This document shows, in pieces, positions 3 to 5,888 of a stretch of 6,328 nucleotides of DNA. Source of the DNA: an archaeon (GTDB taxonomy: Archaea > Hydrothermarchaeota > Hydrothermarchaeia > JALTZZ01 > JALUTC01). Position 1 is the stretch's first letter. Every line of letters begins with the position of its first letter. Below the pieces are notes generated by a model that searched no databases, was not told the origin of the DNA, and worked only from the letters and a program-made list of their open reading frames with translations. The DNA is taken from assembly GCA_027051265.1 (NCBI GenBank), contig JALTZH010000025.1, forward strand, positions 1-6,328. The letters run 5' to 3'. The position numbers and the translations under genes are program-made.

Positions 3-179
3 TGGAACAAAAGCTCTTTGGAAAAGGTTTTGCCTTTGTTAAATCTTTCGGATATCTCTGTTGAGGATTTGACAACAGAAAACCCTGTGAAATTAGACGA
101 ATTCGAAAACTATCTTTTTCTTGTTTATATATTTATATATCTCGTGAGTTCTCGATTCTCAAAGTTAAGAATAATGTAG
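3..179 (+). CDS. Possible 3' end of an unrecognised gene (partial)
   Basis: This frame is open from the left edge of the window to a TAG at 177-179 and gives 58 residues without a start. The first 36 or so residues look like ordinary protein, a mixture of hydrophobic and acidic residues with the stretch SDISVEDLTTENPVKLDEF. A hydrophobic run (YLFLVYIFIYL, residues 37-47) follows, then a short basic tail (SSRFSKLR). I do not recognise the family. The hydrophobic run and tail are encoded inside the left copy of the 117-bp repeat, so the original C-terminus may have been replaced or extended when that element arrived. The gene would converge on pelA, whose stop lies 54 bases away. The reading frame is short and could be chance, and the opposite strand is also partly open here. 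Confidence 0.4.
   Translation, partial: WNKSSLEKVLPLLNLSDISVEDLTTENPVKLDEFENYLFLVYIFIYLVSSRFSKLRIM
132..140 (+). promoter_or_regulatory. TATA-like box of the left repeat copy
   Basis: TTTATATAT matches the archaeal TATA consensus, and a second similar box (TTTATATA) starts at 124. The box is kept in the other repeat copy, 11 bases instead of 9 upstream of CTCGTGAGTTC. Initiation about 25 bases downstream would fall near 160, inside the variable centre. No plus-strand gene follows, so any transcript would be non-coding or antisense to the end of pelA. AT-rich archaeal DNA yields such boxes by chance; conservation in both copies is the main support. Confidence 0.3.
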
Positions 180-203
180 TCCAAGAGAATTTAAGCTATA
201 TCT

Positions 204-229
204 GTAGTATTGAAAGGTAGTATTGAAAG
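204..229 (+). repeat. Two tandem 13-base units, GTAGTATTGAAAG
   Basis: The unit GTAGTATTGAAAG occurs twice without a gap, at 204-216 and 217-229. The right element has three related units, at 4323-4336 (degenerate), 4337-4349 (identical) and 4353-4364 (one A short). The unit ends in ATTGAAAG, which is also the end of many archaeal CRISPR repeats and forms the 8-base crRNA tag. With no spacer between units this is not a CRISPR array. Confidence 0.75.
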
Positions 230-238
230 GGATTCAAT
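222..238. other. Perfect short inverted repeat across the pelA stop
   Basis: ATTGAA (222-227) and TTCAAT (233-238) are exact reverse complements separated by AGGGA. The hairpin spans the pelA stop codon (234-236, read on the minus strand) and the end of the last 13-base repeat unit. It might mark the 3' end of the minus-strand transcript, but no T-run follows on that strand, and archaeal termination usually relies on T-runs. Six-base stems arise easily by chance. Confidence 0.3.
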
Positions 239-1256
239 GTAATTTATATCTTAATATAGCACATATTCCTCCAAATTTTTCAACCTTTTTATTTACATCT
301 TTACTTGAAATTATATATATTTTTGATCTCATATCTCTTGCTAGTTTGAAAAAATTTTGAGGAAGTTCTTTAATGATACTTGGTGATAATAGAATTTTAT
401 CAACAGCACCATGCATTAACGCATTAACAACATCGTTTACTCCATAGGTTGCCAAGCCATCTTTTGCCAATTCTTCCAAAAATTTTTCAAATATATAATT
501 TTCTTGAACAAATCTATTTCTTTGTAAAATTTTATTTGTTATACCCCTCTTCAAAACTTCATAAATACCAGATCTTGATCCCGTTGAAACTGTTTCAATT
601 ATAAACTTATCGGCAAGTTCTTCATAATTTTCTGAAACATACTTACTAAAGATATCTTTAAAGAAACCTGGACCACATATTATAACGTTCTCAATGTTAT
701 ATCTTTGCATCAAATCTTTTATCTTTCTTATTATTTCACCAAAGTATTCTTTTAAACTTAATTCGTACGCTTTGTTATCTTTACCTGATTTTCTATTGTA
801 TATTGAAGCTAAAAATTTCAAACCATTCTTTTTCAACATCGCCACTTCACACTCATCTTCTTCTATACAAACAATCAATGCTTCCGGTGATTCTGAAATT
901 AAAATTGCTTCCTTTAATCTTTCAATCTCCCATTCACTCCATTCCTTTTTTATAATTAATTCATATCCCAATTTTACTTCGATAGTGTGATAGGAACCAT
1001 ATGTTATCAAGTTTTCAGGACCTTCTATTATTTTGCCCAATACTCTTAACGTTCCATATTGCGTTATTTCCGTTTTTTCAACCTCGATTCCTAAAAACAT
1101 TGGAACCCTTTCTGTTCTTGTTTCTTTTTTAATGACACGTGATGTTTTTCCATATACTTTATCACCTTGCTTTAATATATCTTTTAAGGCTAATAAATCT
1201 TCAGGGATTTCAACTTTTACTCTAATTTCATCCTTCTTTATAACAAATACCTTCAT
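234..1256 (-). CDS. pelA: Pelota (Dom34), ribosome rescue factor
   Basis: The product is 340 residues, the usual length for archaeal Pelota, and has its three domains. The N-terminal Sm-like domain spans about 1-125. The central eRF1-2-type domain spans about 126-250, with GPGFFKDIF at 195-203 and STGSRSGIYEVLKRG at 224-238. The C-terminal eRF1-3-type domain spans about 253-340, with ATYGVNDVVNALMHGAVDK at 269-287 and GGICAILRY at 329-337. There is no GGQ motif, which separates it from release factor aRF1. In the cytoplasm Pelota enters the empty A site of stalled or non-stop ribosomes with the GTPase aEF1A, and ABCE1 then splits the subunits (family knowledge). The start is set by the normal N-terminus and lies 29 bases inside the upstream gene, so translational coupling is likely. 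A weak AGGGAT precedes it. Confidence 0.95.
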   Translation of the reverse strand: MKVFVIKKDEIRVKVEIPEDLLALKDILKQGDKVYGKTSRVIKKETRTERVPMFLGIEVEKTEITQYGTLRVLGKIIEGPENLITYGSYHTIEVKLGYELIIKKEWSEWEIERLKEAILISESPEALIVCIEEDECEVAMLKKNGLKFLASIYNRKSGKDNKAYELSLKEYFGEIIRKIKDLMQRYNIENVIICGPGFFKDIFSKYVSENYEELADKFIIETVSTGSRSGIYEVLKRGITNKILQRNRFVQENYIFEKFLEELAKDGLATYGVNDVVNALMHGAVDKILLSPSIIKELPQNFFKLARDMRSKIYIISSKDVNKKVEKFGGICAILRYKLH

Positions 1257-1989
1257 GATTTAATCCCTTACTTTTCCAACATTTTCTAACGGTTGCTTTC
1301 ACGTTACTTCTTTCTTCAAATTCTGCTGTAATTTCAACATATTTTGGTTTAATAATCCTAATCAGGTCATTTAATATTATGTTCACAACTTCCTCGTGAT
1401 ATAATTCCTTATCTTCAAATTTTTTAAAATATCTTTTCAACGATTCGTATTCTAAAAGTTTTTCGTTTGGAATATATCTAATCCTTAACTTAGCAACGTC
1501 TCGTTTTTTCGTAATAGGACATATACATGTGAAATCTCTGTAGGTTAATTCTATTTCAACTTCACCGTAATTATTTGGAATTGTTTTTAAATCTTTTAAT
1601 TTTATATTCTTTAAAACATCTATTAATTCTGATTCATTCTTTACTATATAATTAGAAAAATATATTGGCCATGGGGATTTAACCTTATCTTTACATAAAG
1701 CAATTACATACTTACCAGTTAGATATGAAAATATTGTCTCTGCCATTGCACCAAAGCTTGGTTTAGTAACTAAGAATATTACGACGTCAGCTTCTGATAC
1801 ATATTTCAAATCGTTCTTAATTATTTTCTCACATAATTCTTTTTTGTCTCGGAAATCTTCAACATAACTATAATCCAGGTTCTTAAATTGATCAATAACT
1901 TCAAATCCTTTTTCTTTTAAAAATCTTTGTATAGATATTATTTCCTTTATGTCACCATATCCTACAGCACCTAATACGATGACCTTCAT
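1228..1989 (-). CDS. Fusion of a deoxyribosyltransferase/DNPH1-like domain with a QueF-like domain (probable archaeosine synthesis)
   Basis: Two domains in 253 residues. Residues 1-128 look like the nucleoside 2-deoxyribosyltransferase/DNPH1 fold: an N-terminal strand (MKVIVLGAVGYG), EADVVIFLVTKPSFGAMAE at 66-84 with E84 at the usual catalytic position, then GKYVIAL at 92-98. Residues 145-238 resemble QueF: FTCICP at 153-158 puts C157 at the catalytic cysteine, D164 lies seven residues on as in QueF, and YHEE at 197-200 supplies the His-Glu pair. The QueF NADPH motif, ESKSLKLY-like, survives only partly as EYESLKRY (180-187). Archaeal QueF-like proteins without that motif convert preQ0 in tRNA to archaeosine using ammonia, so this role is more likely than nitrile reduction; that is inference. 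What the first domain does here is unknown. The start lies 4 bases after the PP-loop gene, with only a purine-rich AGAAAGAA upstream. The last nine codons overlap pelA. Confidence 0.75.
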   Translation of the reverse strand: MKVIVLGAVGYGDIKEIISIQRFLKEKGFEVIDQFKNLDYSYVEDFRDKKELCEKIIKNDLKYVSEADVVIFLVTKPSFGAMAETIFSYLTGKYVIALCKDKVKSPWPIYFSNYIVKNESELIDVLKNIKLKDLKTIPNNYGEVEIELTYRDFTCICPITKKRDVAKLRIRYIPNEKLLEYESLKRYFKKFEDKELYHEEVVNIILNDLIRIIKPKYVEITAEFEERSNVKATVRKCWKSKGLNHEGICYKEG

Positions 1990-1993
1990 ATAA

Positions 1994-3010
1994 TTATTTC
2001 TTTCTAATATTAAACTTATAGATCACTTTAAATAAATCTATTATTGTTCTAGCGGCATCACTTGGTTCTTGAACACCTGCTCTAACTTCTCTTGTAATTC
2101 TTTGTATCGTATAGTATAAGAATTGAGGATTCCTCTTTAAGCATTCGAGATGCATCACACATCCGTAGGGATAGCGGTTTAAATTTAAAGGCTTAACGAT
2201 TTCTTTGATTTCTCTCTTTGTTAAACAAAAGCACGCTGGAAGATTAAGTCTAACTAAATCTTTACTCAGATAAGCTATAGCTTGACTTCCAGTTGATATA
2301 TTATCACCGAATATGACAATATGTACTCGATTCTTCTTACAGTATTCTAAGATTTTGTTTTTTATTTGTTTACTGCATTTCGTACATGGATGATATTTTC
2401 CTTTTAATGCTTCTTCATATACTTCTCTGAGATTCTCCTTCAAGAACAAATGTTTAACACCAGTATACTTAATTACTCGTTGAACGTTATCTCTCATGAA
2501 TTTTGTAAGTATAAATTCACCGGGATCTACTGTTACTGCTGTTACGTTTAAGCCTAATTTTTTAGCAAGTATTGTTGAACAACTCGAATCAACTCCTCCA
2601 GATAAAGCAACAACAGCTCTATATTCATTTTTTAACGGTATTATTTCATTTGTTCTCAAGTATTGTTGCAATACGTTTTTAAATTCCTCCAAGAATGATC
2701 TTATTTCCGAGTTGAAAAGGTATTTCTTTTCATCTATTGCTCTAATTGTTTGTTTTATTCTGAGCTTTTTCAGTAAAAGATCGTTATAAGATAGAATTCT
2801 AATTTTGTTTACGTTCAAATCTTTTAGATTTTTTTTAAGTTTACCAACCAAATATCCTTTACCAATTATCAAGGATTTATCCGTCCTATCATATCCTATA
2901 ATTGTCAACGTTCTATCATCCAAGATTACATCTCTAATTAGAGGTATATCAAAAGAACCCCAAAATTCTTTTTGTATTTTTATAATTTCGTTGAGTATTT
3001 TTTCCTTCAT
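1994..3010 (-). CDS. PP-loop ATP pyrophosphatase with KH-like N-terminus, probable tRNA-modifying enzyme
   Basis: The 338-residue product carries the PP-loop SGGVDSS at 137-143, followed by AVTVDPGEF at 158-166 and IFGDNISTGS at 233-242, in the arrangement of the adenylating PP-loop family (TtcA/NcsA/ExsB relatives). A CxxC pair (C209, C212) and further cysteines at 260, 262, 284 and 290 could hold zinc or an iron-sulfur cluster. The N-terminal third contains DRTDKSLIIGKGYLVGKL (41-58), which resembles a KH-domain GxxG loop, so RNA binding is plausible. PP-loop enzymes adenylate a base or carbonyl before thiolation or amination. The exact substrate is not visible, and it lacks the typical QueC motifs. 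It starts 3 bases after the DUF1512 gene with a good Shine-Dalgarno site and is followed after 4 bases by the QueF-like gene, which supports a tRNA-modification role. Confidence 0.8.
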   Translation of the reverse strand: MKEKILNEIIKIQKEFWGSFDIPLIRDVILDDRTLTIIGYDRTDKSLIIGKGYLVGKLKKNLKDLNVNKIRILSYNDLLLKKLRIKQTIRAIDEKKYLFNSEIRSFLEEFKNVLQQYLRTNEIIPLKNEYRAVVALSGGVDSSCSTILAKKLGLNVTAVTVDPGEFILTKFMRDNVQRVIKYTGVKHLFLKENLREVYEEALKGKYHPCTKCSKQIKNKILEYCKKNRVHIVIFGDNISTGSQAIAYLSKDLVRLNLPACFCLTKREIKEIVKPLNLNRYPYGCVMHLECLKRNPQFLYYTIQRITREVRAGVQEPSDAARTIIDLFKVIYKFNIRKK

Positions 3011-3013
3011 GAT

Positions 3014-4147
3014 TTATTTCCTCCTTTTAACTTCTGGTTCAAATTTTAAATCTTTAATTTCTTCATAACAGTTCCCAATTCCACATGTATTTCCAATTCC
3101 AACGATTAGGACGTTACCATCAGATCTTCTAATCGAATCCTTAATCTTCTGAATAACTTTATCCGAAGCTTTTGCTATCTTTTCATTCATAGGCTCTATC
3201 GCTTCCTCAGGTGACATCTTTATAATTATGGCTTCAAGTGGAATATTTAGTTCCATACAAACTTGTTCAATCTTAGCTTTTTCAGGACCAGGATCTCCTA
3301 TAGCTGCACCGATACCTTCAGAAACTTTTCCGGTTTCTTCACCTTCTAGTTTTGCAGCGGCATCTATTGTGATGACTTTCGACAACTTAACAATCTTTGC
3401 GAGATTCTTTACACCCTCGCCCGGTTTTCCAACAGTAGCCCCTGGTCCGAGAGCTTTCATAAGAAAGATTCGTTTACCATCAATAATCTCTTCTGCATAT
3501 ATACAATCTTTAGCAATTCGTTTTATTTTACCTTTATCTTTTATAAGTTTTGCAACAACATATGGTCCAATACCATCTCCTATAGGTTTACACGAAGCTA
3601 TTGCTTCAATTCCTTTCATAAGACTCTCTATAAATCTTCGTAATATTGGAATAAACATCTGTAGAACCATTGCTAATTGTAAGCTTCCTGTTTTTCTTAA
3701 TAAACCTATGTAATGTCTTATCTGTTTATTTAAGGTATGAAGAGAAATAGCTCCCTTTAACAAACTTATTGCATTTGCTTTCCATATTTCATCAATTTTA
3801 GGAGCAATAGAATCAATAAAAGTTTCTATCCTTTCTTCAGATTTATCTATAAGAAATTCTAACTTTTTTAATATACCATACGGATCTAGACTTACGGGGG
3901 GAATTACAAAGAAATCTATAAAATCTTCTATCTTTTCTCTATCTTTATAACTACCAGAACCTTTTTCTATACATACTCTGCATAGGAGATCTATTGTTCT
4001 TTTAGTATATCCATCCAATCGTCTCGATAGCGATTCCAAATCAGCAAGAACTTTGTAAAACTGTAATCTCCAGAGTAAGAATAACAATACCGTAAATAGG
4101 AAGAACCATAATATTACAGATAGTGGGTCGAATTGTTGAAATACCAT
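3014..4147 (-). CDS. DUF1512 family protein, membrane-anchored, function unknown
   Basis: The 377-residue product has one strongly hydrophobic N-terminal segment (about 8-29, SVILWFFLFTVLLFLLW), followed by a basic stretch, so it is probably anchored with the body in the cytoplasm. The middle (about 35-180) is helical. The C-terminal part is glycine-rich with strongly patterned motifs: PIGDGIGP (188-195), GPGATVGKPGEG (234-245), IDAAAKLEGEETG (261-273), GIGAAIGDPGPEK (278-290) and VGIGNTCGIGN (349-359). These match my memory of DUF1512, an archaeal family of about this length without an assigned function. The glycine loops suggest nucleotide or ligand binding, which is inference. It is the first gene of the minus-strand block, with its promoter in the divergent region. 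The Met start directly precedes the membrane segment and fits. Confidence 0.85.
   Translation of the reverse strand: MVFQQFDPLSVILWFFLFTVLLFLLWRLQFYKVLADLESLSRRLDGYTKRTIDLLCRVCIEKGSGSYKDREKIEDFIDFFVIPPVSLDPYGILKKLEFLIDKSEERIETFIDSIAPKIDEIWKANAISLLKGAISLHTLNKQIRHYIGLLRKTGSLQLAMVLQMFIPILRRFIESLMKGIEAIASCKPIGDGIGPYVVAKLIKDKGKIKRIAKDCIYAEEIIDGKRIFLMKALGPGATVGKPGEGVKNLAKIVKLSKVITIDAAAKLEGEETGKVSEGIGAAIGDPGPEKAKIEQVCMELNIPLEAIIIKMSPEEAIEPMNEKIAKASDKVIQKIKDSIRRSDGNVLIVGIGNTCGIGNCYEEIKDLKFEPEVKRRK
3019..3025 (-). promoter_or_regulatory. Shine-Dalgarno site for the PP-loop gene
   Basis: On the minus strand the sequence reads AGGAGGA, ending about 8 bases before the ATG at 3010. It lies in the last codons of the DUF1512 gene, so translation of the two genes is probably coupled. 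It supports the chosen start. Confidence 0.7.
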
Positions 4148-4184
4148 AAATAATAATAAAATTTATTAAGCGAAACCCTGCCAA

Positions 4185-4197
4185 TTTTGTATATTTC
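4185..4197 (-). promoter_or_regulatory. Candidate TATA box for the DUF1512-to-pelA operon
   Basis: On the minus strand this reads GAAATATACAAAA. Initiation about 26 bases downstream would fall near 4166 and leave a leader of about 19 bases before the ATG at 4147. Other AT-rich options exist (TTAAATAT on the minus strand near 4215-4222, CTTAATAAAT near 4161-4170), so the choice is tentative. Confidence 0.3.
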
Positions 4198-4232
4198 AGT
4201 AATTCTTAACTTTTAATATTTAATTGTTTGTA

Positions 4233-4349
4233 CTTTTTCTCACTTTGTTTATATACTTCTCGTGAGTTCCCAATCCATAGGATCTGGGGTGATATTGATC
4301 CTAGAGAGTTTAAGCTATACTTGTAATATTATAAAGGTAGTATTGAAAG
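4233..4349 (+). repeat. Right copy of the two-copy ~117-bp element
   Basis: This copy aligns with 114-229: CTTTTTCT (4233-4240), TTTATATAC (4248-4256), TCTCGTGAGTTC (4258-4269), the 21-base TTTAAGCTATA block (4299-4319) and AAAGGTAGTATTGAAAG (4333-4349). The centre, 4270-4298, differs from the left copy. It holds a stronger hairpin, TAGGATC (4278-4284) with GATCCTA (4297-4303) around a 12-base loop. An extra tandem unit (4353-4364) extends the tail. It sits in the divergent region between the DUF1512 gene and rpl18e. Finding it both here and behind pelA argues against a simple rpl18e promoter. Confidence 0.8.
4248..4256 (+). promoter_or_regulatory. TATA-like box of the right repeat copy
   Basis: TTTATATAC matches the archaeal TATA consensus and is conserved in the left copy. 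Expected initiation is near 4278, at the foot of the TAGGATC/GATCCTA hairpin. It could drive a small RNA, or the ribosomal protein operon with a leader of about 125 bases. No better TATA box lies at the expected distance from rpl18e: the AT-rich stretch at 4386-4397 is too close to the ATG. Confidence 0.35.
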
Positions 4350-4375
4350 ATAGTAGTATTGAAGGTTAATTTTTT
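4278..4375 (+). ncRNA. Candidate small RNA or structured 5' leader
   Basis: If the conserved TATA box at 4248 is used, transcription starts near 4278. The RNA would open with a 7-bp perfect hairpin (4278-4284 with 4297-4303), continue through the conserved TTTAAGCTATA block and three 13-base units, and meet a run of six T at 4370-4375, a plausible archaeal terminator. No C/D-box or H/ACA signature is clear. The same stretch could instead be the leader of the rpl18e operon. This is inference from layout only. Confidence 0.25.
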
Positions 4376-4402: not shown

Positions 4403-4750
4403 ATGGTAAGTAAAGTTCTAGAAGAATTAATTAAAGAATTAAAGAGAAAGAGTTTTGAGCATAGAGCAAAAATATGGAAAGATATTGCTGAAAGATTAGA
4501 AACTCCAAGAAAGAATAGAGCGGAAGTAAATGTTGGAAAAATTGCAAGATACACAAAACCAAACGATATGGTAATAGTTCCCGGTAAAGTTTTAGGTGGT
4601 GGAGAAATAAATCATCCCGTTATTGTTGCGGCGTTATCTTTTTCTAAAAAAGCTAAATATAAAATAGAGAAAGCTGGTGGTAAATGTTTAAAAATACTCG
4701 AATTAGTTGAATTGAATCCAAAAGGATCAAACGTTAAGATAATGAGGTGA
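4403..4750 (+). CDS. rpl18e: 50S ribosomal protein L18e (eL18)
   Basis: The 115-residue product is close to full length for archaeal L18e. Diagnostic segments are AKIWKDIAERLETPRKNRAEVN (split here as 22-34 and 35-43), KIARYTK (46-52), VIVPGKVLGGGEINHPV (57-73) and AGGKCLKI with NPKGSNVKIMR at the C-terminus. The protein belongs to the large ribosomal subunit and is specific to archaea and eukaryotes. It is the first gene of the conserved L18e-L13-S9-RpoN-RpoK-enolase cluster. There is no Shine-Dalgarno site before the ATG, consistent with a leaderless or atypical first gene, and no other start codon nearby gives a better N-terminus. Confidence 0.95.
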   Translation: MVSKVLEELIKELKRKSFEHRAKIWKDIAERLETPRKNRAEVNVGKIARYTKPNDMVIVPGKVLGGGEINHPVIVAALSFSKKAKYKIEKAGGKCLKILELVELNPKGSNVKIMR

Positions 4751-5617: not shown

Positions 5618-5824
5618 ATGATAATTCCTATACGCTGCTTTAGTTGTGGTGCAGTTATAGCTGATAAATATGAGGAATATAAAAGAAGAGTTAAAAACGG
5701 TGAACATCCAGCAAAAGTCTTAGATGATCTAGGGATTAAAAGATATTGCTGTAGACGAATGTTTTTATCTCAAGCTGATTATCTTGACGAAATAATTGAA
5801 ATTGAAGAATACAAGGGGCCGTAG
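5618..5824 (+). CDS. rpoN: DNA-directed RNA polymerase subunit N (Rpb10 homologue)
   Basis: The 68-residue product begins [11 protein letters not shown], the signature RpoN N-terminus, and carries the zinc ligands C7, C10, C44 and C45 (CFSC and RYCCRR). It is a small assembly subunit of the archaeal RNA polymerase. Length is normal. An in-frame upstream ATG at 5564 exists but is inside rps9 and not part of the family. The gene lies 10 bases after rps9. Its last codons (AAG GGG CCG TAG) run into tRNA-Pro: ten bases (5815-5824) are shared, and the stop codon is tRNA bases T8-A9-G10. Confidence 0.95.
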
Positions 5825-5888
5825 GGTAGCCTGGTGATCCTGCCGGCTTGGGGTGCCGGTGACCCAGGTTCAAATCCTGGCGGCCCCA
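5815..5888 (+). tRNA. tRNA-Pro, anticodon GGG
   Basis: A complete cloverleaf without intron: acceptor GGGGCCG (5815-5821) with CGGCCCC (5881-5887), D arm GGGT...TCCT (with a G-T and a T-T pair) and loop AGCCTGGTGA, anticodon stem CCGGC/GCCGG around TTGGGGT with anticodon GGG, variable loop TGAC, T stem CCAGG/CCTGG around TTCAAAT, and discriminator A at 5888. CCA is not encoded. It reads proline codons CCC and CCU. At about 69% G+C it contrasts strongly with its AT-rich surroundings. It sits inside the ribosomal protein operon between rpoN and rpoK, so it is probably cut from the polycistronic transcript by RNase P and a 3' endonuclease. Confidence 0.96.

Follow-up and report, generated by a model that had tools for sequence, protein, structure and literature searches.

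Solitary CRISPR leader–repeat copies around a four-gene block and between other genes of an archaeal genome

Two repeated elements around a pelota-like gene block

The stretch of DNA analysed here, the window, is the entire contig C25 (6328 bp) of a draft genome (G000) of 1.46 Mb in 257 contigs. Four minus-strand genes lie between two same-orientation copies of an element, as an earlier reading of the letters alone (the sequence-only reading) had described: both copies are present at about the places given there (114-229 and 4233-4349), their similarity is far beyond chance and the bracketing of the genes is borne out. The features are as follows.

110-188, plus strand: leader of copy 1 (W1), a 5'-truncated degenerate CRISPR leader (profile match 110-216, model positions 19-125)
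124-140, plus strand: TATA-like box of copy 1, TTTATATATTTATATAT (read from the sequence; conserved alignment column)
149-171, plus strand: decayed leader palindrome of copy 1 (TTCTCGA ... TTAAGAA)
189-216, plus strand: single CRISPR repeat of copy 1, three mismatches from the array repeat
217-229, plus strand: tandem partial repeat of copy 1, GTAGTATTGAAAG
234-4147, minus strand: outer span of the bracketed genes
234-1256, minus strand: pelota-like gene (pelA), with eRF1 domains
1228-1989, minus strand: QueF-like gene
1994-3010, minus strand: PP-loop/QueC-like gene
3014-4147, minus strand: DUF1512 gene
4166-4369, no strand: junction specific to G000, filled by copy 2 (from alignment to the congener G001)
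4194-4307, plus strand: CRISPR leader of copy 2 (W2) (C128:12309-12448 against window 4194-4330, 84%)
4248-4256, plus strand: TATA box of copy 2, TTTATATAC (read from the sequence)
4267-4289, plus strand: leader palindrome of copy 2, partly decayed (TTCCCAA ... TCTGGGG)
4308-4336, plus strand: single CRISPR repeat of copy 2, four edits from the array repeat
4337-4365, plus strand: two partial repeats of copy 2 (4337-4349 and 4353-4365)
4403-4750, plus strand: L18e gene, first in the L18e-L13-S9-RpoN operon downstream of copy 2

The extent and anatomy of the element had been drawn less accurately than its presence. Copy 2 is longer than proposed, with leader homology from ~4194 and partial repeats to 4365, and copy 1, whose leader is missing its first part, starts at ~110-115. 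The 17-base tail seen at the end of both copies is there, but it is a tandem partial duplicate of the 3' end of the repeat: GTAGTATTGAAAG stands at 204-216, 217-229 and 4337-4349, and GTAGTATTGAAGG at 4353-4365. The supposed architecture of conserved ends around a variable centre does not hold, since most other copies keep the palindrome at the centre, whereas in these two it has decayed. Copy 1 comes after a reading frame truncated at the contig edge and points at the 3' end of pelA, tail to tail; it is most likely an inert relic. Within the gene block, the QueF-like protein (of the pair at 1228-3010) has a nucleoside-deoxyribosyltransferase-like N-terminus, a weak match below the Pfam cut-off, and this gene and its PP-loop/QueC-like neighbour, next to pelota, are probably a tRNA 7-deazaguanine gene pair.

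A CRISPR leader followed by one repeat

Three identities had been offered from the sequence (small RNA genes, a transposable unit or relic leaders), and the last was right. Each window copy is a degenerate CRISPR leader plus a single 28-bp repeat (GTTTAAGCTATACTAGTAGTATTGAAAG), without spacers. The same leader heads a true CRISPR array in this genome (C128:12330-14317) of ~30 repeats, at least 28 of them identical or near-identical. This array has 27 identical copies of the repeat, a few variants at the far end and spacers of 38-43 nt, and goes on into C27. Copy 1 matches the array leader and repeat at 76% over 129 bases (E ~3e-17) and copy 2 at 84% over 141 bases (E ~9e-37); in both, the repeat that matches the array follows directly after the leader. 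Neither copy is itself an array of at least two repeats with regular spacers: each holds one repeat and 13-bp partial repeats.

Cas1–Cas2 and effector genes are encoded in the same genome, with Cas1 on C117, a divergent Cas2 beside it, and Cas7, Cas5 and Cas11 of types I-A and I-B; searches with PF10040 and TIGR01877 gave no Cas6, in an incomplete assembly and for a variable protein. A third type I cas cluster (C253, L221) has a cas7 broken by a stop codon, beside cas5. The C128 array has probably been active, because two of its spacers, 6 (40/40 bases) and 24 (38/39), match a contig that resembles a mobile element and was binned with the sister species. These protospacers lie at L140 (G001:C25) 2993-3032 and 5794-5832, and the gene content of that contig, judged by eye (ParA-like, HerA/VirB4-like ATPase, TadC-like and prepilin-peptidase-like), is that of a mobile element targeted by the array. 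Spacer 15 (L034:13405-13443) corresponds, in reverse complement, to a sequence resembling the repeat and the 12 nt that follow it; no exact source turned up in this genome, and the spacer may therefore have been taken from a repeat-bearing unit on some other DNA. An array fragment on C84 (L036:1-394) has no leader, and its first repeat abuts an apparent ATPase coding sequence on the minus strand.

The sequence-only reading had also proposed looking for further copies, and there are ~20 to 35 solo leader–repeat copies between ordinary genes across the genome. BLAST with copy 2 found many places, one of which (C128) then has matches in series ~67 bases apart. A profile built from 14 copies found, outside arrays, 20 places at E<1e-7 and ~15 decayed ones between 1e-6 and ~1e-2. 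Both window copies, which score 2.6e-20 and 1.9e-22, are among the 14 sequences that built the profile, and the strong matches include most of those 14, so that independent support comes from the single-sequence BLAST and from a genome-wide repeat pattern search. The latter, allowing at most three mismatches, gave 63 matches, ~21 of them outside arrays, and none with the reversed pattern as a control. Among 60 relatives, convincing matches were confined to G001 (MAG JALUTC01, of the same genus and the closest relative examined), which carries one weak solo copy besides an array whose repeat is related; a single marginal match came from each of two more distant genomes. The one solo copy detected in G001 (L115:1183-1309) lies upstream of an apparent RHH/MazF-like toxin–antitoxin pair.

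Aligned copies have in common an AT-rich stretch, an invariant TATA core, TCGTGAGT, a palindrome (TTCCCGA-N9-TCGGGAA), a short linker and the repeat. Subfamilies can be recognized: a deletion before the repeat is common to C113, C48a, C48b and C252, and a variant (GTGACTCGA) of the GTGAGTTCCCGA block to C120 and C48b. Several copies, the two of the window among them, are followed by short tandem duplicates of the 3' half of the repeat. Across 15 aligned copies, identity drops to 0.31-0.39, the chance level, directly after the repeat, whereas 5' homology ends at different points, some copies matching the array up to ~290 nt upstream; C108 matches the array at 90% over 211 nt. The 3' end is thus fixed at the last base of the repeat and the 5' end is variable. 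In C48b, C50 and C119 the upstream stretch consists of common IS605-like right ends. These IS605/TnpB-type ends lie just upstream of leader copies (L035:3372-3574, L039:5000-5152 and L050:2967-3241), and the homology crosses the IS end into the leader.

A family of small RNA genes or an autonomous small transposable unit would also be multi-copy, promoter-bearing and equipped with inverted repeats, but we regard either as extremely improbable. An Rfam search of the entire window returned just a tRNA, which also gave a further match below threshold. The palindrome was considered as a conserved RNA hairpin and rejected: its pairing (89.6%) equals that in shuffles (89.5%), and there is no covariation beyond shuffles. 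In solo copies it decays without compensation, as expected of relics. A MITE-like unit would have two fixed ends, terminal inverted repeats and a target-site duplication; here the 5' ends differ between copies, and inspection revealed neither terminal inverted repeats nor a transposase or a target duplication. The element is, moreover, the same in kind as a CRISPR leader plus repeat.

Gene-order breaks, gene starts and possible routes of dispersal

Gaps that bear an element have broken gene order relative to the congener in 12 of 12 testable cases, against 73 of 108 other gaps (Fisher p=0.018), in a small test based on ~38% of the congener's genome; settled copies thus mostly mark places of changed gene order. 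At copy 2, homology to G001 stops at 4165 on the DUF1512 side and restarts at 4370 on the L18e side. In G001, DUF1512 comes after a polB-ORF116 operon, and a Bud32-like kinase gene, 45 bp away, faces L18e; a more distant relative has L18e behind S11-RpoD, with DUF1512 at another place beside other genes. Because the neighbours differ in both, the DUF1512/L18e neighbourhood is new in this genome: the flanks of copy 2 stem from different ancestral neighbourhoods, and the leader–repeat unit fills their junction. The sequence-only reading had suggested that recombination between the two copies could delete, duplicate or move the enclosed operon; this idea is unsupported, and the findings at copy 2 speak for something else. 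A reciprocal exchange between elements at this site has left no trace. The displaced Bud32-like gene sits here on G000:C151 without an element, so a simple exchange of that kind is not indicated.

Co-oriented copies crowd against gene starts. With hand-curated starts, 11 of 21 co-oriented copies have the end of the repeat no more than 11 nt from the start codon, where a null of uniform placement in the gap gives 3.1 (P ~5e-6); among the strong copies the figure is 6 of 12 (P ~2e-4). The genes hisB (C138) and aTrm56 (C108) appear to start at a TTG inside the repeat. C138, C210 and C15 hold near-perfect repeats although the leader is barely recognizable; such repeats stand at gene starts at L106:7094-7120, L102:6607-6633 and L105:761-787 (hisB, riboflavin-synthase-like and UDP-glucose-dehydrogenase-like). 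On the usual archaeal promoter spacing, transcription is predicted to start inside the palindrome, ~27 nt before the repeat, which for copy 2 would be at ~4276-4281. Copy 2 is a plausible candidate promoter for the L18e operon; a native promoter for L18e is also conceivable, since ~33 nt of its own upstream sequence is kept in common with G001. Promoter use could not be general, because in ~14 of 35 copies the next gene is convergent rather than co-oriented; the orientation bias (~21 of 35 co-oriented) is not significant.

Placement at gene starts raises the idea of a selected regulon, in which promoter and 5' UTR modules would tie housekeeping genes to CRISPR regulation and a crRNA-processing nuclease would perhaps cut the mRNA within the repeat, giving an mRNA that starts with AUUGAAAG. 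The abutment of repeat ends on start codons, the apparent TTG starts and the near-perfect repeats beside fading leaders all speak for it. Many copies, however, are degenerate or have no co-oriented gene downstream, the linked genes have no obvious function in common, and the Cas6 search described above came back empty; we judge such a regulon to be quite unlikely. We give equally little weight to a bolder version, in which the units would serve as portable cassettes of promoter and 5' UTR: copies would be placed at the start codons of genes whose upstream neighbours were lost, giving housekeeping genes CRISPR-type transcription and repeat processing. Cas1–Cas2 would then perhaps join chromosomal ends at the distal edge of the repeat, which would explain the fixed 3' end.

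Contraction in place is another route to the same structure: each solo copy would be the remnant of a longer array whose spacers were deleted by repeat–repeat recombination. The product would look exactly like a leader plus one repeat, the remaining arrays on C27 and C84 likewise end beside genes, and on C208 two repeats are separated by a short insert. Yet a way to place ~35 leaders at different sites would still be needed, a second near-complete repeat is kept at just one solo site, and the congener has no arrays at the tested sites. On balance, contraction in place is possible but rather unlikely.

The explanation that we consider probable is that solo CRISPR leader–repeat units spread duplicatively, mostly after the split from the sister species, that they mark changes of gene order and that some lend a promoter. 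A leader with one repeat would be duplicated by a recombination-like process that fixes the 3' end at the last base of the repeat and leaves the 5' end variable. Candidate routes are Cas1-mediated end joining, recombination with array contraction, and hitch-hiking with IS605. A copy that came to lie directly upstream of a co-oriented gene would probably lend that gene the CRISPR promoter, with transcription passing through the repeat into the gene.

CRISPR leaders are usually regarded as fixed parts of an immune locus; here a piece of that locus has apparently been scattered as loose, promoter-like DNA. Dozens of spacer-less leader–repeat copies at gene starts and gene-order breakpoints suggest that the piece of DNA targeted by the adaptation machinery can multiply, and that it could supply promoters to ordinary genes. 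Solo copies would also offer new arrays a ready-made starting point, and the origin of new CRISPR loci becomes directly testable by comparing close relatives.

Relation to known CRISPR-derived elements

A literature search, with subscription journals mostly outside its coverage, found no description of dispersed chromosomal leader–repeat units. The nearest counterpart is the leader and first repeat of an archaeal type I array: the copies have the same leader, TATA promoter, repeat-near palindrome and repeat as the organism's own array, but they lack spacers, are many and are scattered among housekeeping genes. In Sulfolobus islandicus, Cas1 binds a stem-loop at the leader-proximal end (PMC9456107), and the leader palindrome may, by analogy, be a counterpart of that structure.

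Archaeal viruses bear leader-preceded mini-arrays (PMC6858448), which likewise combine a leader with one or few repeats and no cas genes; phages encode solitary repeat units, or Racr RNA anti-CRISPRs (PMC10651486), which likewise place a lone repeat downstream of a promoter. Both precedents, and the array spacer that stems from a repeat-like sequence with no exact counterpart found elsewhere in this genome, would suit an origin of the copies as remnants of mobile elements or viruses that bore mini-CRISPR arrays or solitary repeats. We nevertheless hold such an origin to be very unlikely: the repeat and leader patterns had no match in the viral contigs, phages and plasmids searched, the copies are flanked by housekeeping genes and no viral genes, and IS605-like right ends adjoin only a few of them. 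The mini-arrays are viral and have 1-2 spacers, whereas the units described here are chromosomal, spacerless and present in ~20-35 copies. Racrs sit on phages or plasmids, whereas the present copies have housekeeping neighbours rather than a location in a virus, provirus or plasmid, carry the full host leader and are decaying.

The link to rearrangement has a precedent in Thermotogales, in which CRISPR loci occur at inversion and rearrangement sites, as a review reports from DeBoy et al. 2006 (PMC5052741). CRISPR sequences are found at such sites in both cases; in that review's account the association is with CRISPR loci, whereas here it is with solo leader–repeat units.
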